The position numbers were made by a program, and so were the translations under genes. 64,000 nucleotides of DNA from Roseomonas indoligenes. Its GTDB lineage: Bacteria > Pseudomonadota > Alphaproteobacteria > Acetobacterales > Acetobacteraceae. The stretch is from assembly GCF_017813365.1 (NCBI RefSeq), contig NZ_JAGIZA010000006.1, positions 186,001-250,000 on the forward strand. Reading direction: 5' to 3'. Below the pieces are notes generated by a model, which was given only the letters and a program-made list of their open reading frames with translations, made no database searches and was not told where the DNA came from. Shown one piece after another: positions 13,596 through 23,567 of the stretch (positions are counted from its first letter, which is position 1; each line of letters begins with the position of its first letter).

Positions 13596-14747
13596 ATGGA
13601 CGCGATTCCCCAGAACCCGCCCGGCAACCCGCTCGAGGCGGACATCGCCGCGCGCACGGATGTCTACTTCAAGCGCACGAAGGCCGTGGTGCAGCGCTTC
13701 GGCGATGCCCGCGTCACCTACGCCCTCTTCCTGCGCCGCCCCGTCGTCTCCGCACCGCGGCTGATGCTGGACTGGCTCAACGCCGTCGCCGCCGAACGCG
13801 GCCTCGATCTCGACGTGAAGCTGATGCATGAGGAAGGCACCTGGGTCGGCGCGGGCGACCCCATCCTCTACATCACCGGCTCCTTCGCCGGCCTGGCGGA
13901 CCTTGAGACCCTCCTCCTCCAGAAGCTCGGCGCCGCCTGCGTCGCGGCCCACAACGCCTACCAGATGTGCCTGGAGCTGCCGCAAGTCGAATTCCTGGCC
14001 ATGGAGGCCCGCCACTGCGCCGGCGCCGAGATGCAGGAGATCATGGCCTACGCCTCCAGCATCGGCGGCAAGGCCGCGAAGGCGGAGGGCGCGCGCGGCT
14101 TCGTCGGCAACGCGAACGACGCCACGGCCCACTACTACGGCGCGCTGCGCGGCCTCGGCACCATGCCGCATGCCCTGATCGGCTATGCCGGCTCCACCCT
14201 CCGCGCCGCGGAGATGTTCCACGAGACCTTCCCGGATTCCAACCTCACCGTCCTGACGGACTACTTCGGCCGGGAGGTGACCGACGGGCTGGAAGTCTGC
14301 CGCCGCTTCCCCGAGATCGCGGCCGAGGGCCGCCTCGCCGTCCGCCTGGACACGCATGGCGGCCGCTTCCTCGAGGGGCTGGACCCGCAGACCTCCTACG
14401 CAGTGATCGAGCGCCACGCGCCCGGCGCCATCCGCCGCTATCGCAGCGAGAGCGAGCTGCGCCACCTCGTCGGCACCGGCGTCTCGGCCGCCGCCATCTG
14501 GCGCATGCGCGACGCGCTGGACGAGGCCGGCTTCCCGAAGGTGCGGATCATCGCCTCCTCCGGCTTCGGCGTCTCCAAGTGCCGCGTGATGGCGGAGGCC
14601 CGCGCCCCCATCGACACGATCGGCACCGGCAGCTTCATCCCCGACAGCTGGGGCGAGACCTACGCCACCGCAGACATCGTGGCCTATGACGGGGAACCGC
14701 GCGTGAAGGTCGGCCGCGAGTTCCTGCTGCGCGGCGCCCAGGGATAG
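13596..14747 (+). CDS. Nicotinate phosphoribosyltransferase
   Basis: A 383-residue enzyme of the type II phosphoribosyltransferase fold, converting nicotinate and PRPP to nicotinate mononucleotide in NAD salvage. The N-terminal TDVYFKRT opening, the EARHCAGAEMQEIMAYASS catalytic segment around residues 140-160, FVGNANDATA and the phosphate-binding IASSGFG plus GTGSFIP loops near the C-terminus support the call. It resembles the short archaeal-type NAPRTases more than E. coli PncB. An NAD synthetase-like gene lies 3 kb further on but appears catalytically dead. Confidence 0.82.
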   Translation: MDAIPQNPPGNPLEADIAARTDVYFKRTKAVVQRFGDARVTYALFLRRPVVSAPRLMLDWLNAVAAERGLDLDVKLMHEEGTWVGAGDPILYITGSFAGLADLETLLLQKLGAACVAAHNAYQMCLELPQVEFLAMEARHCAGAEMQEIMAYASSIGGKAAKAEGARGFVGNANDATAHYYGALRGLGTMPHALIGYAGSTLRAAEMFHETFPDSNLTVLTDYFGREVTDGLEVCRRFPEIAAEGRLAVRLDTHGGRFLEGLDPQTSYAVIERHAPGAIRRYRSESELRHLVGTGVSAAAIWRMRDALDEAGFPKVRIIASSGFGVSKCRVMAEARAPIDTIGTGSFIPDSWGETYATADIVAYDGEPRVKVGREFLLRGAQG

Positions 14748-14767
14748 GGGATCGGGGTAGGGCGGCG

Positions 14768-15205
14768 CTACAGCGCCACCCGCCGCACCCCGGCGTCCCG
14801 CATCCGCCGCACCTCGCCACCATCTAACGGATCGAGCACGAGGATGGTGATGCCCTGCTGCATCCCCTCCGCCCTCACGCGATACACCCAGTCCATCGCG
14901 AAGGCGCCGTTGCGCAGCGTGTAGCCGCCGGTCAGGCTCACCTGCATCTTCTCGGGCCGGTCCATGTTCACCAGCAGCAGCGGCGCCTGGAGCGAGACCG
15001 AGAAGCTCCGCCCCTCCACCGGCGCCGCCGTCAGCTTGAGCGAGACGGGCTTGCCCTCATTGGCGCTCACGAAGCGTCCGAAGGCCGCTGCGTTGCGCGC
15101 GGTCAGCACGCCCTGCAGTTCCGGCGTCCCGGATTGCGCCATGGCGGCCGAGGGCAGCAGCACCAGCCCGCCCAGCATCCCCCGCCGCGTCAACGCACCG
15201 ACCAT
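14768..15205 (-). CDS. Exported hypothetical protein with twin-arginine-like signal
   Basis: A 145-residue protein of unknown function. From the ATG at 15205 it reads TRRGMLGGLVLLPSAAMAQ, a Tat-like signal with cleavage near AMA/Q. The mature part is a compact alpha/beta sequence ending LDPLDGGEVRRMRDAGVRRVAL, without Cys or an obvious active site. A longer frame (to 15271) would place the signal internally and is unlikely. It is convergent with the NAPRTase gene and lies 79 bases downstream of the 2OG-oxygenase gene on the same strand. Confidence 0.6.
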   Translation of the reverse strand: MVGALTRRGMLGGLVLLPSAAMAQSGTPELQGVLTARNAAAFGRFVSANEGKPVSLKLTAAPVEGRSFSVSLQAPLLLVNMDRPEKMQVSLTGGYTLRNGAFAMDWVYRVRAEGMQQGITILVLDPLDGGEVRRMRDAGVRRVAL

Positions 15206-15284
15206 CCAGCCATCCTCCGTACTGTTTCCGCCATCGGCGCCCGCCAATATGGCGCGGGCATGGCACCTCAAGAGGAGGTGACCC

Positions 15285-16328
15285 CTATCGCATCTGGATG
15301 CCCTGCTGCCCGGCCGCGGCGCGCTGCCGGATCAGCGCCTGCTCCTGCTTCGCCCCCTCCGCATCGGTGAAGAAGGTGAAGATCGCGAAGCGCCGGCCGC
15401 GGGTCACGGGCAGGGCCTCGTGCAGCATGTCGCAGCCGAAGATCGCCGCCCCGCCGGCCTCCGGCTCATGCAGGTCCGGCCCGAACTCCGGGAAGCGCAG
15501 CGTCCCGCCCTCGTACTCGCCCGTGTTGAGGTTCAGGCTCATCGCGAAGCGCCGATGGGCGGTGAAGGGCGTGCGGTTGTCGCGGTGCGCCTCGAAGGCC
15601 CCGGCATCGGCGGCATCGTAGCACCCGATCCGCGGCACCTCGTAAGAGACGGGCTGGAAGCGGTAGGCCCGCATCATCTCCGGCAGCACCCGGCGCATCA
15701 GCCGGGCGTGAAAGGTCTCGTAGAGCCCCCGGTCGTCCAGGAACACGTCCGCCCGGCGCTTGATCCGGTGCGCCCCGGCCGCCTCGGCGGCACCGGCCAC
15801 CCGGTCCTTCTGCTTCTCGCCCCGCTCCCAATGCGCCAGCAATGCCGCCACCAGTTCCGGCTCCAGGATGTCCGGCACCAGCAGCACCGGCGCGCCGCCG
15901 CGCCGCACCGGCGGCGCCGGGGCAGGGGAGGGAAGGGCTGCCAGCGCCGCCCGCACGGCGCTCGCCATTCCCGCCGGCCCGGCAGGCGCGGCGAATTCCA
16001 GCCGCCCACGCGGCGAGACCACCGCCACCCCACCCCCAGCCAGCCCAAGGGCCCGGAAGGCACCACCCCCCGCGTCGAAGACCCGCTGCGGCCCCGGCCG
16101 CACCGTTCCGTCGGGCGCGCCGGCCAAAACCTCCACCAACACCGTTCCCGCCGCGCGCGCCGCGCTCTCCAGCGCCGGTGCCTCCTCCTCCGGCAGCCCG
16201 CCCAGCGCCAGCACCCGTGGCCGTCCGGCGATGACCTGTCCCATCACGTCGAAGCCCTGGCCGGAGGCGTCGGGCAGCACGATCCCCGGCAGGTGATCGC
16301 CCACAAGGAAGACGGAACGGTCGCTCAT
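15285..16328 (-). CDS. Peroxiredoxin-like domain fused to 2OG-Fe(II) oxygenase
   Basis: A 347-residue two-domain protein. Residues about 1-135 follow a thioredoxin/AhpC-like plan (GDHLPGIVLPD..., then V-V-S-P-R-G-R-L) but contain no cysteine at all, so this part cannot be a working peroxidase. Residues about 145-320 form a 2-oxoglutarate/Fe(II) dioxygenase. The iron ligands are His248 and Asp250 (EAHRDN) and His303 (MLHEALPV), and the 2-oxoglutarate Arg is in RGRRFAIF (312/313). It resembles prolyl-4-hydroxylase-type enzymes; the target is unknown. It is transcribed away from the SDR gene, with which it shares a 144-base intergenic region. Confidence 0.8.
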   Translation of the reverse strand: MSDRSVFLVGDHLPGIVLPDASGQGFDVMGQVIAGRPRVLALGGLPEEEAPALESAARAAGTVLVEVLAGAPDGTVRPGPQRVFDAGGGAFRALGLAGGGVAVVSPRGRLEFAAPAGPAGMASAVRAALAALPSPAPAPPVRRGGAPVLLVPDILEPELVAALLAHWERGEKQKDRVAGAAEAAGAHRIKRRADVFLDDRGLYETFHARLMRRVLPEMMRAYRFQPVSYEVPRIGCYDAADAGAFEAHRDNRTPFTAHRRFAMSLNLNTGEYEGGTLRFPEFGPDLHEPEAGGAAIFGCDMLHEALPVTRGRRFAIFTFFTDAEGAKQEQALIRQRAAAGQQGIQMR

Positions 16329-16472
16329 GGCGTCCTTTCTCGCGCGCCGCGCCGCGCCCCGCTACCCCGGCCGCACCCGATTCTGATCGCCCGGAGCAGC
16401 CCGATCCCGGCCGCCGAGCGTTAGCCAACTGCCCGCCCCAGGCGCGGCGCGGACGACAGGGAAGACAGGATT

Positions 16473-17474
16473 ATGGACGAAACGAGGATGTCGCGGCGCG
16501 GCATGGTCGGGGCCGCCGCCGGCGTCGGCATGGTGGTCGCGGCGGCCAGCCCCGGCGATGCGCAGGCACAGGCCCAGCCCGGGGCGGCCCCGGCCGCGCT
16601 GCCCGACCCCCGCAGCCGCTACCCCCGCCCGCCCTTCCAGGAGCAGACCCAGCCCTTCCCCGGCCTGGCCGGCCGCATGAACCCGCGCCCCGACCATGGG
16701 GAGGAGAGCTACAAGGGCTCCGGCCGCCTCGCCGGCCGCAAGGCGCTGGTCACCGGCGGCGATTCCGGCATGGGCCGCGCCGCCGCCATCGCCTTCGCGC
16801 GGGAGGGGGCCGATGTCGCCATCAGCTACCTGCCGGACGAGGAGCCCGACGCGCGGGAGGTGATCGACCTCATCCAGAAGGCCGGCCGCACCGCCCTGGC
16901 CTTGCCCGGCGACATCCGGGACGAGGCGCATTGCCGCCAGATGGTCGCCACCGCCGTGGAACGGCTGGGCGGCCTCGACATCCTCGTCAACAACGCCAGC
17001 CGCCAACAGCAGCGCCAGGCCCTCGGCGACATCAGCTCCGAGGATTTCGACGCGACGATAAAGACGAACATCTACGCGATGTTCTGGATCACCAAGGCCG
17101 CGCTGCCGCATCTCAAGCCCGGCGCCGCCATCATCCAGACCACCTCGGAACAGGCCTACGACCCGTCGGAGAACCTGGTGGACTACGCCATGACGAAGGC
17201 GGCGATGATGAACTTCACCAAGTCCCTCGCGAAGCAGCTTGGCCCGAAGGGGATCCGCGTGAACGGCGTGGCTCCCGGCCCGATCTGGACCCCGCTCCAA
17301 GTCTCCGGCGGCGCGACGATGGAGAAGCTGAAGACCTTCGGCGGCAATACCCCGCTCGGCCGCCCCGGCCAGCCGGCGGAGCTGGCCTCCATCTACGTCC
17401 AGCTCGCCGCGGCCGATGCCAGCTACGCCACCGGGCAGGTCTATGGCGCCGCCGGGGGCAGCGGCCAGCCCTGA
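16473..17474 (+). CDS. SDR-family oxidoreductase with Tat signal (YhdF/YdaD-like)
   Basis: A 333-residue short-chain dehydrogenase. The first 30 residues contain MSRRGMVGAAAGVG, a twin-arginine signal. A Pro-rich linker and the PGLAGRMNPRPDHGEESYKGSGRL segment follow, as in the long glucose-1-dehydrogenase-like group. The Rossmann motif is TGGDSGMGRA near residue 93. The catalytic residues are Ser in TTSEQAY and Tyr/Lys in YAMTKAA. NNAS near 172 replaces the usual NNAG. Tat export would fit a folded NAD(P)-containing enzyme. The substrate is unknown; relatives are often stress-induced. Confidence 0.82.
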   Translation: MDETRMSRRGMVGAAAGVGMVVAAASPGDAQAQAQPGAAPAALPDPRSRYPRPPFQEQTQPFPGLAGRMNPRPDHGEESYKGSGRLAGRKALVTGGDSGMGRAAAIAFAREGADVAISYLPDEEPDAREVIDLIQKAGRTALALPGDIRDEAHCRQMVATAVERLGGLDILVNNASRQQQRQALGDISSEDFDATIKTNIYAMFWITKAALPHLKPGAAIIQTTSEQAYDPSENLVDYAMTKAAMMNFTKSLAKQLGPKGIRVNGVAPGPIWTPLQVSGGATMEKLKTFGGNTPLGRPGQPAELASIYVQLAAADASYATGQVYGAAGGSGQP

Positions 17475-17585
17475 CCGCTCCATGCGGGGGTCGGTGCACC
17501 GCGCCGATCCCCGTATTCGATGCGAAAACACCGGGAAAACAGGTATTTCCGCGCGCGGGGGAACTACCCTAGGTTCGTGCGATCC

Positions 17586-18995
17586 ATGCACGACCCACTC
17601 CGTATCGCCCTGGCCAGCTTCAACCCGCGCATGGCCGCGCCCGAGGCCAACGCGGCGGAGCTCGCCGCGCTGCGCGCCCGCGCGGCCGATGCCGGCGCGG
17701 ACCTCCTCCTCACCCCCGTCCACTCCCTTTCCGGCGCTGTTCCTCCGGCCGTCGCGGGTGATGCTGCCTTCGCCGCGGCCTGCGAGACCGCGCTAGCCCC
17801 GCTTGCCACCGCGGATGGCCCCGCCATGACGGTCGGCCTGCCCTGGCGGGAGCATGGACGCCTGCACGAGTCGGTCGTCGTTCTCGCCGAGGGGGGCCTC
17901 CGCGGCCGCCGCACCGCCCACCACCCGCGCCCGGGCTTCGACCCAGGCCCCGTGCCCGGCCCGCTCGCCCTGGGCGACCTCCGCCTCGGCCTCATGCCCG
18001 GCGCGGACTGGCGCAACCCCGCAATCCCCGAGACCCTGGCCGAGACCGGCGCCGAGATCCTCGTCGCCTTGGACTCCCTTCCCGAGGAGACGGACAGCCC
18101 GGAGCGGATCCTCCAGGCCGCCCTGTCCCGCGTGGTGGAGAACGGCCTGCCCCTGGTCCTCCTCAACCGTCTCGGCGCGGAGGAGGAGAGCGCGCATGAC
18201 GGCGCCGCCCTGGTCCTGAACGCCGACCGCTCCCCCGCCCTCAGGACCCCTTCCTTCGCCGAATCCTTCACCGTCACGGAGTGGCGGCAGGAGGGAGGTG
18301 CCTGGCGCTGCGCCTCATCCCCGCTCTCCGCCCCGATGGAGTGGGAGGAGCGCCTCTGGCGGGCCCTTCTCCTCGCGCTGCGCGACCACGCCCTGCGCTT
18401 CGCCCCGGCCCCCATCCTGATCGCGCTGGACGACGACCCGGCCACCGCGCTGACCGCCGCCCTGGCCGTGGACGCCTTCGGCACGGATTCCATCCGGGTC
18501 CGCGCCTTCCTGCTGCAGGAAGCCGCCGCCCCGCTGGCCAGCCGCCTCGGCCTGGCCTCCTCGATCCTGGACCTGGGGCCCGCCCTGGAGTGCCTGGGCA
18601 ATGCCCTCCCGCCTGCCGCCCCCTTCCTGCGGAACCCGCTGCGCCGCCTTGCCATGGATGTGCTGTCCCAGGCAGGGCAGGGGGTGCAGCCCGTCAACGG
18701 CTTCAGCGCCTGCTCCGCCGCGTTTTTCCCGCTCCGATACCTTTCCCCGGCCCAGTGCCGCCGGTTGGCCGAGTGGCGCAATGCCGCCCGCCCGCCCGAC
18801 GCCCTGGGCCCGGAATACCCCTTCCTGCCCCTGCCGGCGGAGGAGCCCGCGCCCGCCGAACGGCATGAGTCCGGCCTGACCCTCTGGCAAAGCCTGGTGC
18901 GCGCGGACTACAAGCGCCGCCTGCTCCCGCCCGGCCTGAACATCGCCCCCCGCGCCTTCGGCCACGCAGAGAAAGACAGGGCCCAGGCACCATGA
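17586..18995 (+). CDS. Degenerate NAD+ synthetase homologue (both active sites lost)
   Basis: A 469-residue protein laid out like glutamine-dependent NAD+ synthetase: N-terminal nitrilase-type domain (about 1-250) then a synthetase domain (about 255-460). The scaffold is clear: RIALASFNP, LVLNADRSPAL, ALTAALAVDAFG, and the C-terminal DYKRRLLPPGLNIAPRAFG. The catalytic parts are missing. The glutaminase Glu region reads TPVHSLSG, the Lys region RTAHHPRPGFD, and the Cys region MPGADW with no Cys. The ATP loop SGGxDS is replaced by LDDDPAT (282-287), and the usual SAELxPxQxDED block is absent. The reading frame is intact throughout, so this is probably a maintained pseudoenzyme. The start at 17586 fits the family N-terminus. 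It overlaps the next gene by ATGA. Confidence 0.8.
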   Translation: MHDPLRIALASFNPRMAAPEANAAELAALRARAADAGADLLLTPVHSLSGAVPPAVAGDAAFAAACETALAPLATADGPAMTVGLPWREHGRLHESVVVLAEGGLRGRRTAHHPRPGFDPGPVPGPLALGDLRLGLMPGADWRNPAIPETLAETGAEILVALDSLPEETDSPERILQAALSRVVENGLPLVLLNRLGAEEESAHDGAALVLNADRSPALRTPSFAESFTVTEWRQEGGAWRCASSPLSAPMEWEERLWRALLLALRDHALRFAPAPILIALDDDPATALTAALAVDAFGTDSIRVRAFLLQEAAAPLASRLGLASSILDLGPALECLGNALPPAAPFLRNPLRRLAMDVLSQAGQGVQPVNGFSACSAAFFPLRYLSPAQCRRLAEWRNAARPPDALGPEYPFLPLPAEEPAPAERHESGLTLWQSLVRADYKRRLLPPGLNIAPRAFGHAEKDRAQAP

Positions 18996-19393
18996 GCGAC
19001 CACCACTCCCCCAAGCCCGCCCCGACGGGCCCCTTCGTCCGGATCAAGGACCTCTCCGGCGGGAACGGCGACGAGCCTGTGGAGGACATCCGCGGCTTCG
19101 CCACCGCCGCGGATGCCGCCACCTTCGCCCGCCGCTACGTGCGCGACAGCGTCGAGCGCTGTCGCACCCCCGGCGCCGACGCGGATGCCGTGCTGGCCGC
19201 TTGGTTCGCCTTCGGCGAGGACGCCGAGGCCCTGGACCTGGACGGGGAGCACTGGACCAGCGCCGCCGAGGTTCGCGGCTTCGCCGAGAAGCCCCCGCGC
19301 ACCCGGACGGAGCGCGATTGGCGCGCCCTCGACCCCCGCCGCCACCTGCCGAACGAGGACGACGACAGCGCCGGGGAGGAGGAGGGCGAGTGA
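18992..19393 (+). CDS. Hypothetical acidic protein between nadE-like gene and gltX
   Basis: A 133-residue cytoplasmic protein that I do not recognise. It begins with a Pro-rich tail, has a helical core (IRGFATAADAATFARRYVRDSVERC, then ADAVLAAWFAFGEDAEAL) and ends with a very acidic tail (NEDDDSAGEEEGE). There are no membrane segments, and one Cys. The start overlaps the stop of the NAD synthetase-like gene (ATGA, 18992-18995) and its stop overlaps the gltX GTG start (GTGA, 19390-19393), so all three are probably translated in coupling. A role tied to the pseudoenzyme or to GltX is possible but unsupported. Confidence 0.75.
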   Translation: MSDHHSPKPAPTGPFVRIKDLSGGNGDEPVEDIRGFATAADAATFARRYVRDSVERCRTPGADADAVLAAWFAFGEDAEALDLDGEHWTSAAEVRGFAEKPPRTRTERDWRALDPRRHLPNEDDDSAGEEEGE

Positions 19394-20721
19394 AGGTCCG
19401 CTTCGCCCCCAGCCCCACCGGCTGGCTCCATGTCGGCAATGCCCGCCCCGCCCTCGCCAACTGGCTGGAGGCCCGCAAGCGCGGCGGCACCTTCCTCCTC
19501 CGCCTGGACGACACGGATACCGGCCGCAGCAAGCCCGAATACGCCCAGGGCATCGAGGAGGACCTGCGCTGGCTCGGCCTCGACTGGGACGATTTTCTCC
19601 GCCAGTCCGACCGTACCGCCGCCTATGAGGCCGCGGCCGAGAAGCTGAAGAAGGCCGGCCTGCTCTATCCCTGCTTCGAGAGCGAGGAGGAGCTGAACTT
19701 CAAGCGCGAGCAGCGCCGCAAGCAGGGCCGCGCGCCCATTTACGACCGCGCCGCCCTGAAGATGACGAAAGACCAGTACGAGCGGGCGCTGGCCAACAAC
19801 AAGACCCCTTACTGGCGCTTCAAGCTCAACACCCGCACCGTCGCCTGGCGCGACGGCGTGCTGGGCGAGCGCAGCGTGAAGCTGCCCAGCCTGTCGGACC
19901 CCGTGCTGATCCGCGCGGACGGGTCCTTCCTCTATACCTTCACCTCCGTCGTGGACGACCTGGAGACGGGCATCACCCACATCATCCGGGGCGAGGACCA
20001 CGTCACCAACACCGGCATCCAGATCGACATCATCGAGGCGCTGTCCGGCCGCCCCAACCGCATCTACTTCGCCCACATGCCCCTGCTGCTGGACGCGGAG
20101 GGCGGCCCGCTGTCCAAGCGCCTCGGCAGCATTTCCCTCCGCCAGTTCCGGCGCGATGGGATCGAGCCGGCCGCGATGACCGGCTACCTCGCCGCCCTCG
20201 GCAGCTCGCGCGATCCCGTGGCGGCATCCCCGCGCGACCTGGTCGCGGACTGGGACATCACCCGGATCTCCCATTCCCCCGCGCGCTTCGACACGAAGCA
20301 GCTTCTCGCGCTCAACCGCAAGCACCTGCACGCCCTGAGCTTCGAGGCCGTGAAGGACCGCCTGCCCGAAGGTGCCGACGAGGCCTTCTGGCTCGCCGTG
20401 CGCGGCAACCTCGACCTGCTGAACGAGGCCCGGGACTGGCACGAGGTCGCGCGCGGAGAGATCACCGTGCCCGAGCAGCCGGACCAGGCCGATCTGCTGC
20501 GCGCCGCGACCGACGCGCTCCCCGCCGAGCCCTGGGACGAGGCCACCTGGCCCGCCTGGACCGCCGCGATCGGCGCTGCGACGGGCAAGAAGGGCAAGCC
20601 CCTCTTCCTCCCCCTCCGCCGCGCCCTGACGGGCGAGGACCACGGCCCCGACCTCAAGACCTTCCTGCCGCTGATCGGCCGCGACCGCGCCGCGATCCGC
20701 CTGCGGCGATCGATCGGCTGA
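19390..20721 (+). CDS. gltX: Glutamyl-tRNA synthetase
   Basis: A 443-residue class I aminoacyl-tRNA synthetase that charges tRNA with glutamate. The start is GTG at 19390, overlapping the preceding stop, giving KVRFAPSPTGWLHVGNARPAL; the HIGH-type motif is HVGN (residues 14-17). The LRLDDTDTGRS segment binds Glu. The KMSKS-type loop reads GPLSKRLGS near residue 238. The longer open frame upstream of the GTG belongs to the neighbouring gene. The length (443) is slightly short for GluRS, with a compact anticodon-binding C-terminus. Alphaproteobacteria often carry two GltX copies; this could be either. Confidence 0.92.
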   Translation: MKVRFAPSPTGWLHVGNARPALANWLEARKRGGTFLLRLDDTDTGRSKPEYAQGIEEDLRWLGLDWDDFLRQSDRTAAYEAAAEKLKKAGLLYPCFESEEELNFKREQRRKQGRAPIYDRAALKMTKDQYERALANNKTPYWRFKLNTRTVAWRDGVLGERSVKLPSLSDPVLIRADGSFLYTFTSVVDDLETGITHIIRGEDHVTNTGIQIDIIEALSGRPNRIYFAHMPLLLDAEGGPLSKRLGSISLRQFRRDGIEPAAMTGYLAALGSSRDPVAASPRDLVADWDITRISHSPARFDTKQLLALNRKHLHALSFEAVKDRLPEGADEAFWLAVRGNLDLLNEARDWHEVARGEITVPEQPDQADLLRAATDALPAEPWDEATWPAWTAAIGAATGKKGKPLFLPLRRALTGEDHGPDLKTFLPLIGRDRAAIRLRRSIG

Positions 20722-20726
20722 ACACG

Positions 20727-22169
20727 ATGCACCTCCACTTCCACGACAGCGCCCGCCGCGAGAGGGTCGAGTTCCGCCCGATCGACCCGGAGCACATCCG
20801 CCTCTACGTCTGCGGCCCGACCGTCTATGACCTCGCGCATCTCGGCAATGCGCGCCCCGTCGTCGTCTTCGACGTGCTGGCCCGCCTGCTGCGCCGCGTC
20901 TATCCGCGCGTCACCTATGTCCGGAACATCACGGACGTGGATGACAAGATCAACGCTCGCTCCCGCGAGAGCGGCGAAAGCATCGCCGCCATCACTGCCC
21001 GCACGACCGCCGACTTCCACGCGGACATGCAGGCCCTGAACTGCCTGCCGCCCGACGTGGAGCCGCGCGCGACCGCCAGCATCCCCGAGATGATCGAGAT
21101 CATCGGGAAGCTGATCGCCAACGGCAACGCCTACGAGGCGGAAGGGCACGTGCTCTTCTCCGTCGCTTCCTACCCCGAATACGGCCGCCTCTCCGGCCGC
21201 ACGCCGGACGAGATGCTCGCCGGCGCCCGCATCGAGGTCGCGCCCTACAAGCGCGATCCCGGCGATTTCGTCCTCTGGAAGCCCAGCGACGCGGAAACAC
21301 CGGGCTGGGACTCCCCCTGGGGCCGCGGCCGCCCGGGCTGGCACATCGAGTGCTCCGCCATGGCCTGGCGCAATCTTGGTGAGGAGATCGACATCCATGG
21401 CGGCGGCGCCGACCTGATCTTCCCCCACCACGAGAACGAGGTGGCGCAGTCCTGCTGCGCCTTCCCCGGCAGCCGCTTCGCGCATCTCTGGATGCACAAC
21501 GGCATGCTGCTCGTGGACGGCGAGAAGATGTCGAAGTCCGTCGGCAATTTCCTGACGGTGCGGGGCATCCTCGCGCGCGGAGCCTGGGCCGGCGAAGCCT
21601 TCCGCCTGCTGCTGCTGAAGACCCATTACCGCGCCGCCCTGGACTACACCGCCGAGCGCCTGGACGAGGCCCGCGCCGAGCTGGACGACCACTACGCCCT
21701 CCTCGTCCGCAACCTGCCGAAGCCCGAGGCCGACGACGCGACGGTGGCCGACATGGTTGCCTGGGCGCTGGAACCCCTGGCCGACGACCTGAACACCCCC
21801 CTCGTCATCGCCCGCCTGCGCGACCTGCGCGCGCTGGAGAACGTGATGCAGGTCGGCGGCTCCATGGCCACGGTCCTCGCCCGCGCCGACCGCGGCTGGA
21901 ACCCGAAGCCCGGCCAGGCCGGCGCCGCCCTGCGCGAGGCCGCCGCCGCCATCGGCCTGCTCCCCTCCCAGCCCAAGGCCTGGCGCCAGGGACGGACGAC
22001 GAGCGGGGAAGGGCAGGATGACGCGGCGATCGAGGCCGCCATCCAGGCCCGCCTGGACGCCCGCGCCCGCAAGGACTGGGCGGAGGCGGACCGCATCCGC
22101 GCCGACCTCGCCGACCGCGGCATCGTGCTGGAGGACGGGAAGGGCGCGACCACGTGGCGCCGGGCATAG
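20727..22169 (+). CDS. cysS: Cysteinyl-tRNA synthetase
   Basis: A 480-residue class I synthetase. The zinc and active-site opening LYVCGPTVYDLAHLGNAR carries the HLGN motif and the first zinc Cys. GWHIECSAMA supplies the second Cys, and HGGGADLIFPHHENE the remaining zinc His and Glu. The KMSKS loop is EKMSKSVGN near residue 270. The C-terminal DALR-type anticodon domain ends with RADLADRGIVLEDGKGATTWRR, the standard end. It starts 5 bases after gltX and its last codons overlap the next gene, continuing the same operon. Confidence 0.95.
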   Translation: MHLHFHDSARRERVEFRPIDPEHIRLYVCGPTVYDLAHLGNARPVVVFDVLARLLRRVYPRVTYVRNITDVDDKINARSRESGESIAAITARTTADFHADMQALNCLPPDVEPRATASIPEMIEIIGKLIANGNAYEAEGHVLFSVASYPEYGRLSGRTPDEMLAGARIEVAPYKRDPGDFVLWKPSDAETPGWDSPWGRGRPGWHIECSAMAWRNLGEEIDIHGGGADLIFPHHENEVAQSCCAFPGSRFAHLWMHNGMLLVDGEKMSKSVGNFLTVRGILARGAWAGEAFRLLLLKTHYRAALDYTAERLDEARAELDDHYALLVRNLPKPEADDATVADMVAWALEPLADDLNTPLVIARLRDLRALENVMQVGGSMATVLARADRGWNPKPGQAGAALREAAAAIGLLPSQPKAWRQGRTTSGEGQDDAAIEAAIQARLDARARKDWAEADRIRADLADRGIVLEDGKGATTWRRA

Positions 22170-22660
22170 GCCTGCGCCGCGCGACCGCGGCCGACCTCCC
22201 CTATGTCATGGCCGTGGAGGCGACCCCCGGCCACGACGCCTTCATCAATCACCAGAGCCGGGAGGAGCACGAGGCCCAGCTCGCCTCCCCCGCCTTCGCC
22301 TACTTCGTGGCCGAGGCAGGTGGCGCGCAGGTCGGTTTCGCGATCCTCTCGGAGATGACGGAGGCGCGCGGGAACCGCTGCCTCAAGCGCCTCGCCCTGG
22401 CGCGGCCCGGCGGCGGCCTCGGCCGGCCCCTCTTCCGCGTCATCACCGACTGGGCCTTCGCCAACACGCCCGCGCACCGCTTCTGGCTGCACGCCCTGCA
22501 CACCAATGCCCGCGCCATCCACCTCTACGCGTCCGAGGGCTTCACCGAGGAGGGTCGCCTGCGCGAGGCCCGCCCGCGCGAGGATGGCACCCGCGCGGAC
22601 CTCGTCGTCATGTCGATGCTGCGCCCGGAATGGCAGGCGCGCCGCACCGGGCCCGGCTGA
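22154..22660 (+). CDS. GNAT family N-acetyltransferase
   Basis: A 168-residue acetyltransferase of the RimI-like GNAT fold. LRRATAADLPYVMAVE is the N-terminal strand-helix. The acetyl-CoA loop is in the ALARPGGGLGRPLFRVI stretch, and NARAIHLYASEGFTEEGRLRE is the C-terminal GNAT signature. It begins at GTG 22154, inside the last codons of cysS (16-base overlap), so it is expressed with the tRNA synthetases. The acceptor is unknown: it could be a small molecule or a protein N-terminus. Confidence 0.82.
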   Translation: MAPGIGLRRATAADLPYVMAVEATPGHDAFINHQSREEHEAQLASPAFAYFVAEAGGAQVGFAILSEMTEARGNRCLKRLALARPGGGLGRPLFRVITDWAFANTPAHRFWLHALHTNARAIHLYASEGFTEEGRLREARPREDGTRADLVVMSMLRPEWQARRTGPG

Positions 22661-22733
22661 TTCCCGCAAAGGGCAGGGCAGGGGCACCGCCATTCCCCTT
22701 GCCCAACCCGGCCCGCAGCGGCATCCCCCCGAT

Positions 22734-23567
22734 ATGACCGGCAAAGAGGGCGGCGCCGCCCTGACACCCCCGCCCAGCGAGAGCCCCATCGTGGTCCTCG
22801 TCCGCCCGCAGATGGCGCAGAACATCGGCACCGTGGCCCGCGCCATGGCAAATGGCGGCCTCTTCCACTTACGAATCGTGGCCCCGCGCGACGGCTGGCC
22901 GCAGGAGGTCGCCTGGCGCGCCGCATCCGGCGCGGACCGCATCCTGGACGCCGCCACGATCCATGAGACGGTGGACGATGCCGTGGCGGACTGCCATCGC
23001 GTCTTCGCAACCTGCCCCCGCCCGCGCCACATCATCATTCCCGTGCGCACGGCCCGCAGCGCCGCGGAGGACCTGCGCGCCATCAACGCGGAGGGGAAGC
23101 GCGCCGCCATCCTCTTCGGGCCGGAGCGCGCGGGGCTGGAGAACGAGGACATGGCCCGCGCCGATACTCTTGTCCGCTACCCCCTCAACCCCGTGCATAT
23201 GAGCCTGAATCTCGCCCAGGCCGTGATGATCCTCTCCTACGAGTGGTGGATGGCCGAGGAGCCCACCCCGCCCCGCGCCCTGATGACGAACGAGACCCGC
23301 GTCGCCACCAAGGGCGAGCTGGAGGGCTTCCTGGGCCGCCTGACCCGCGAACTGGACGCCTGCGGCTTCCTCGACAACATCCCCAAGCGCCCGGGCATGG
23401 TCCGCAACATCCGCCACCTCTTCGAGCGCGGGGAGGTGACGGAGCAGGAGCTTCGCACCCTGCACGGCGTGGTGACGGAACTCTCCCGTGGCCGCGTCGC
23501 CCGCGGCGGCCCGGCCGCGCCGGAGCCGCCGTCAATGCCCACGGTGGATCCGCAGATCGACGGCTAG
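22734..23567 (+). CDS. trmJ: tRNA (cytidine/uridine-2'-O-)-methyltransferase TrmJ
   Basis: A 277-residue SPOUT-class RNA methyltransferase that methylates the ribose at position 32 of certain tRNAs. IVVLVRPQMAQNIGTVARAMAN is the RNA-binding opening. The knotted SAM-binding end is visible as AILFGPERAGLENED (motif 2) and YPLNPVHMSLNLAQAVMILSYEW (motif 3). The ATG at 22734 begins just before the conserved opening; the frame is open for 76 codons upstream but overlaps the GNAT gene. It follows the synthetase operon by 73 bases and fits its tRNA theme. Confidence 0.9.
   Translation: MTGKEGGAALTPPPSESPIVVLVRPQMAQNIGTVARAMANGGLFHLRIVAPRDGWPQEVAWRAASGADRILDAATIHETVDDAVADCHRVFATCPRPRHIIIPVRTARSAAEDLRAINAEGKRAAILFGPERAGLENEDMARADTLVRYPLNPVHMSLNLAQAVMILSYEWWMAEEPTPPRALMTNETRVATKGELEGFLGRLTRELDACGFLDNIPKRPGMVRNIRHLFERGEVTEQELRTLHGVVTELSRGRVARGGPAAPEPPSMPTVDPQIDG

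Follow-up and report, generated by a model that had tools for sequence, protein, structure and literature searches.

Glutamine-dependent nicotinamide adenine dinucleotide (NAD) synthetases are divided into an octameric type, NadE1, and a dimeric type, NadE2, a naming taken from the accessible part of PMC7196632, and the catalytic set of their glutaminase is given in the available text of PMC6946656 as Cys, Glu, and Lys. PII signal proteins bind both NadE1 and NadE2 of Azospirillum, with the authors speculating, in the accessible part of PMC7646526, that the glutaminase domain is the dock. The window analyzed here, a 64,000-nucleotide stretch of Roseomonas indoligenes DNA (contig NZ_JAGIZA010000006.1), contains an open reading frame (ORF) at 17586–18995 on the forward strand that is, by profile and alignment, a homolog of the short (dimeric) type, NadE2. 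We consider it likely that this old dimeric NadE2 lost both of its activities beside NadE1 and that its folded protein is still preserved because it serves some purpose other than catalysis. The window belongs to a 5.8-Mb genome in 61 contigs from the genus Muricoccus (Roseomonas group), of which 15 genomes were compared. A search of one library of openly licensed papers found no report of a dead NadE.

A NadE2 homolog without its catalytic residues

The frame at 17586–18995 comprises 469 codons with a single stop, at its end, and was correctly placed by the first-pass annotation of this DNA. The NCBIfam model PRK13981 (NAD+ synthase) matched the ORF at 4.7e-44 and 150.7 bits, below its cut-off of 479, and PRK02628 (NadE1) matched residues 3–107 only, with 26.9 bits against a cut-off of 473. 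CN_hydrolase (PF00795) was the sole Pfam match (39.5 bits, cut-off 23.2), the same scan giving no match to NAD_synthase (PF02540). The solved structures nearest in sequence are the NAD synthetases 4f4h and 5kha. Catalytic columns were placed by alignment with intact relatives of 554 residues, giving the following features:

17586..18995, + strand: predicted pseudo-NadE2, a catalytically dead homolog of dimeric glutamine-dependent NAD synthetase, 469 residues (frame, profile matches, alignment, substitution pattern)
17718..17720, + strand: codon 45 (Val), column of the glutaminase catalytic Glu (alignment; motif TPVHSLSG)
17916..17918, + strand: codon 111 (Ala), column of the glutaminase catalytic Lys (alignment; motif RTAHHPRP)
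18000..18002, + strand: codon 139 (Gly), column of the glutaminase nucleophile Cys (alignment; motif MPGADW)
18429..18446, + strand: codons 282–287 (DDDPAT), ATP-loop SGGxDS columns, SGGIDS in intact relatives (alignment)
18906..18935, + strand: DYKRRLLPPG, C-terminal block (alignment)

The motifs TPVHSLSG, RTAHHPRP, MPGADW, and DDDPAT, read earlier as the erased glutaminase Glu, Lys, and Cys regions and the erased SGGxDS, are present and do align to those columns, the SGGxDS columns being those of the ATP-binding loop. A scaffold described in the first-pass annotation as intact from start to end is not what the alignment revealed, as ~85 synthetase-domain residues, including the TTGNKSE region, are absent relative to the intact 554-residue relatives. 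All 12 Muricoccus dead copies that were aligned share an unchanged C-terminal YKRR..PPG, as does the set of 20 intact sequences. Judged by its residues, the window protein is a pseudoenzyme in the defined sense, an enzyme homolog that lacks the catalytic residues.

Dead copies are found beside NadE1

Dead NadE2 is present in 14 of the 15 Muricoccus genomes, and named strains that carry it include R. aerilata DSM 19363 and Roseomonas rosea DSM 14916 (Muricoccus roseus in current NCBI taxonomy); an artifact of sequencing, assembly, or gene calling, in favor of which nothing was found, is refuted by these independent genomes and can safely be dismissed. Homologs in sister species are not broken by stops, the dead copies there being open frames. 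The remaining Muricoccus genome, G156, has lost the gene body; what is left is a C-terminal stub with a weak match, immediately 5' of the gene for a 133-residue protein. In a related genus (that of G107, which includes Pseudoroseomonas wenyumeiae), 13 of 17 genomes have a NadE2-type match, dead in 13 of 13; of the other four, two carry C-terminal fragments of dead copies where a contig ends, and two have nothing. Of the 15 genomes of a third genus (that of G095), nine have NadE2 but lack NadE1 (the copy is intact in the eight that were read; the ninth was not read), four have NadE1 only, one has both types intact, and G095 itself has NadE1 and a dead NadE2. Another dead copy stands isolated in G007, and G138 shows an early stage, where Cys to Gly is the sole change among the residues checked.

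The glutaminase Lys and Cys and the SGGxDS motif are absent from all 29 dead copies, with the nucleophile column occupied by Gly or Ala; Cys has become Gly in 27 of the 29, and in G138. The glutaminase Glu is still present in 6 of 14 Muricoccus dead copies and 3 of 13 in the related genus. A second, intact nadE was sought in the window genome and found elsewhere in it, of the octameric NadE1 type. NadE1 exceeds its model cut-off in all 15 Muricoccus genomes, in 85 of the 150 family genomes, and in every one of the 29 genomes with a dead copy.

Retention of the overall fold and of the C-terminal YKRR..PPG block would suit a working NAD synthetase with alternative residues; this is scarcely credible when Lys, Cys, and SGGxDS are missing from 29 of 29 copies and each of their genomes has NadE1 above the cut-off. 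That the old fold has acquired a different catalytic activity, with residues close to where the glutaminase site used to be, appears very improbable. The 10 core Muricoccus copies do have a new invariant cluster around residues 195–209, including R195, E199, and H204, but the whole cluster is not common to the four other Muricoccus copies or to G107, and all 29 dead copies lack the Lys and have Gly or Ala in place of the nucleophile.

Among 191 family genomes, the 117 that are NadE1-positive comprise 29 with dead, 6 with intact, 1 with partial, and 1 with truncated NadE2 (G075, cut by a contig end) and 80 without a NadE2 match, although G167 and G172, tallied in the last class, bear C-terminal dead pieces at contig edges. 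The 74 NadE1-negative genomes comprise 0 dead, 70 intact, 3 with none, and 1 not read (G182). Dead copies have thus been met only beside NadE1 (29 of 117 NadE1-positive versus 0 of 74 NadE1-negative genomes). In the evenly drawn 150 genomes the corresponding dead/intact table is 7, 5, 0, 62, with a Fisher p of 4e-7 that is not corrected for relatedness.

Some further NadE genes were noted separately. G088 has, beside NadE1, a NadE2 in early erosion, with the triad kept, LPGCG for LPNYG, and CEDG for CEDW. In G098, G139, and G145, no NadE1 exceeds the model cut-off and no NadE2 match was found, the completeness of these genomes being 94% for G098 and 72 and 66% for the others. A second NadE1-like protein consisting of the glutaminase only, at L046 1228–2427 (contig C25 of G157), still has the motifs with Glu, Lys, and Cys. 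Proteins of this kind number eight, in 7 of the 15 Muricoccus genomes (G157, G003, G152, G158, G160, G156, and G159, the last with two), covering NadE1 model positions 12–313 at 379–386 bits with no synthetase part.

Purifying selection after loss of the enzyme

The ratio of nonsynonymous (dN) to synonymous (dS) substitution rates, omega, was obtained from a maximum-likelihood codon model written for this analysis. Eight Muricoccus pairs had a usable dS; they overlap, having species in common, and are not independent. In them, omega of the dead gene was 0.076–0.148. Three pairs were excluded from this range, G152/G102 for saturated dS and G003/G151 and G154/G157 for a dS of 3.4–3.7; the latter two gave 0.057 and 0.092, respectively. 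In the same eight pairs gltX, the 133-residue gene, cysS, and NadE1 had an omega of 0.015–0.083, and the dN of the dead gene was 1.3–8 times theirs. Intact NadE2 pairs gave 0.019–0.063 in 11 of 12 cases and 0.104 in one, and dead pairs of the related genus 0.10–0.24. The glutaminase part had the lowest omega of three parts in 5 of 6 pairs (0.05–0.10 overall).

In the eight usable pairs, codon positions 1 and 2 differ 1.8–5.3 times less often than position 3. An alignment of 10 Muricoccus genomes has 149 invariant columns out of 448, and within the invariant residues 87% of 108 four-fold sites vary; the intact-NadE2 residue persists at 85 columns, and at 31 a different residue has become invariant. 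The dead protein evolves faster than its neighbors, yet is under clear purifying selection after enzyme loss, and the earlier claim that selection keeps the protein is borne out. The open frame, which had been offered as evidence of that selection, is real but proves little at this G+C content: in a neutral simulation with substitutions only, it stayed open in 3.5–32% of runs, depending on settings. The case rests on the substitution pattern.

Probable repeated inactivation

On a tree of gltX and the 133-residue gene, parsimony gave at least 3 state changes; this tree contains a polytomy and divides Muricoccus into two parts, the smaller of which groups with the third genus at 88/81 support. 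A first gltX tree, made without the intact members of the third genus, had the dead copies as one clade and one outlier, and adding those members broke the clade. The NadE1 tree was a quick one in which long branches meet and neither Muricoccus nor the related genus forms one group; it separated third-genus NadE1 from the NadE1 of both Muricoccus and the related genus, consistent with independent NadE1 arrivals. As revival of a dead enzyme is implausible, and as G095 and G007 sit among intact relatives, the phylogenetic pattern suggests about 3–5 independent inactivations, a range rather than an exact number because the tree has a polytomy, splits Muricoccus, and changed with added members.

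The nucleophile of nitrilases is held in a strained turn. The change from Cys to Gly, striking if it did recur, is likely to reflect this, in that Gly may ease the turn once the nucleophile is useless, which would again mean that the fold is being kept.

A probable non-catalytic role

Preservation of the dead copy beside a working NadE1 makes a non-catalytic job probable, and the retained fold would act by binding. NadE2 would have lost both activities in lineages where octameric-type NadE1 makes NAD; the kept glutaminase fold could then be a docking site for PII signal proteins, or for nucleotides (for example NAD or nicotinic acid adenine dinucleotide, NaAD), and in this way the dead protein might modulate NadE1, or compete with it, in response to the state of nitrogen and NAD supply. 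Taken by itself, this regulatory-partner mechanism (PII- or metabolite-dependent), the most likely one, is rather doubtful. A broader proposal, that NadE2 has a second, non-catalytic function in the family and that its dead form is a regulatory subunit (a PII or NAD sensor) tying NAD synthesis to nitrogen, is possible, though the balance lies against it; such a function would be visible here because several lineages killed the chemistry independently beside NadE1 yet kept the protein. Each of the 15 Muricoccus genomes has two PII genes, which permits the PII idea without supporting it. The pseudoenzyme reading of the first-pass annotation therefore stands for a dead, selected protein of the dimeric NadE2 type, whereas the regulatory partner or ligand it proposed is conjectural.

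Several observations weigh against retention for a role. From intact to dead copies Ala rises from 12.4 to 19.8%, Lys falls from 2.8 to 0.6%, and G+C at first codon positions rises from 0.69 to 0.82, a drift of the kind that relaxed constraint produces, the 31 rows called dead in this comparison including G138 and the truncated G075. Related-genus copies uncut by contig ends range from 413 to 523 residues. The two-domain fold, a trait shared with the NadE2 family, models well with intact relatives in the alignment, but a model from nine dead copies only is poor (predicted local distance difference test score, pLDDT, 52.4; predicted template modeling score, pTM, 0.48) and worst in the glutaminase domain; the good model therefore leans on the intact relatives. 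Loss of the gene body in G156, 1 of 15 Muricoccus genomes, and the 80 of 117 NadE1-positive genomes without a NadE2 match (two of the 80 showing dead C-terminal pieces) mean that, over long times, the gene can be dispensed with. As for PII, 13 of 14 control genomes carry its genes, so that their near-universal presence does not discriminate.

The main rival explanation is a slowly dying relic, in which nadE2 lost its function once NadE1 was there, the protein does little, and the frame is open mainly because it lies between the promoter and the essential gltX, on which stops would cause polarity. The overlaps with the 133-residue gene and gltX would fit this, as would the relaxed composition, the eroded lengths in the related genus, the loss in G156 and absence in other relatives, and neutral open-frame survival of 3.5–32% at this G+C. 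Polarity, however, guards against stops and not against amino-acid change, and does not account for the deficit of differences at codon positions 1 and 2, for an omega of ~0.1 after a shared enzyme death, or for 31 positions with a new residue invariant in 10 genomes. We regard the relic as unlikely, and the substitution data support a selected pseudoenzyme, not a plain pseudogene.

One family offers at one locus the whole series: intact NadE2 alone, NadE2 intact beside NadE1, an early step (G138), fully dead copies still under selection, reduction to a stub, and complete absence. If dead copies do bind PII or a nucleotide, a NadE2 role beyond chemistry becomes testable where the chemistry is already absent. 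Such genes also call for caution in annotation, since they match NAD synthetase models yet lack the NAD-making residues.

Gene neighborhood and upstream region

The genes around the dead nadE2 and a promoter-like pair before it are as follows:

13596..14747, + strand: nicotinate phosphoribosyltransferase-like gene, NAD salvage (best models below their cut-offs)
17547..17575, + strand: promoter-like pair TTCCGC - 17 bp - TAGGTT (upstream-region comparison)
18992..19393, + strand: 133-residue protein, overlapping the dead nadE2 by ATGA (ORF; relatives in the family)
19390..20721, + strand: gltX, GTG start, overlapping the 133-residue gene by GTGA (profile match)
20727..22169, + strand: cysS, beginning 5 bp past gltX (profile match)

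Both start-stop overlaps reported earlier, ATGA at 18992–18995 and GTGA at 19390–19393, were confirmed; the 4-base overlap of nadE2 with the 133-residue gene is found in the ten short Muricoccus copies. The 133-residue protein gave no Pfam or NCBIfam match, and has relatives in 133 of 150 family genomes, often just 5' of gltX; it is a strongly conserved, uncharacterized family gene. The order dead nadE2, 133-residue gene, gltX is found for 14 of 14 Muricoccus copies. Counting distinct loci with at least 1.4 kb downstream, the 133-residue gene and then gltX follow at all 24 dead loci and at 49 of the 68 intact ones, other intact loci among the 68 having gltX without the 133-residue gene (6) or neither (8). 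The window gene is orthologous to intact NadE2 by this gene order. A functional tie of nadE2 to gltX, raised in the first-pass annotation as possible binding of tRNA-synthetase products, was set aside, the downstream order being ancestral and common to intact NadE2 loci. Among distinct loci with at least 1.2 kb upstream, whose flank lengths differ, 25 of 41 intact and 10 of 19 dead ones are preceded by a same-strand gene resembling nicotinate phosphoribosyltransferase.

The CTAGG box of the promoter-like pair (17569–17575) ends 10 nucleotides 5' of the nadE2 start codon. CTAG is found there in 10 of 14 Muricoccus dead copies and TTAG in three more, within upstream DNA that is otherwise unalignable; CTAG shortly before the start codon occurs at 44 of 74 intact loci and at 12 of the 28 dead ones that remain when G138 and G075, which is truncated, are taken out of the 30 rows called dead, and is strongly avoided in the window (13 observed versus 169 expected from base composition). 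A sigma-70 consensus scan found no site before nadE2. An RNA element in or near the gene was rejected, as the two Rfam matches in 14500–23500 (E up to 1) lie below gathering scores and outside the ORF.

Comparison with known systems

The window protein is closest to dimeric NadE2-Gln (PRK13981; solved structures 4f4h, 5kha, and 3n05), with which it shares the two-domain fold over ~400 residues, the locus, the neighbors, and YKRR..PPG. It differs in lacking the glutaminase Glu, Lys, and Cys, the ATP loop, and TTGNKSE, in being ~85 residues shorter, and in scoring far below the cut-off. Members of the CN-hydrolase/nitrilase superfamily (PF00795) are set apart by their Cys-Glu-Lys triad, which the window copy does not have. 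Octameric NadE1-Gln (PRK02628; M. tuberculosis 3dla) is a distant homolog that gives the intact activity in the same genomes, from a separate gene of ~680 residues with the NadE1 catalytic motifs intact. The PII-regulated NadE of Azospirillum brasilense, as described in the accessible parts of PMC7196632 and PMC7646526, is an active enzyme for whose NadE2 PII binding is known, whereas for the dead copy such binding is only putative; it is of the same enzyme type and has a known non-catalytic partner.
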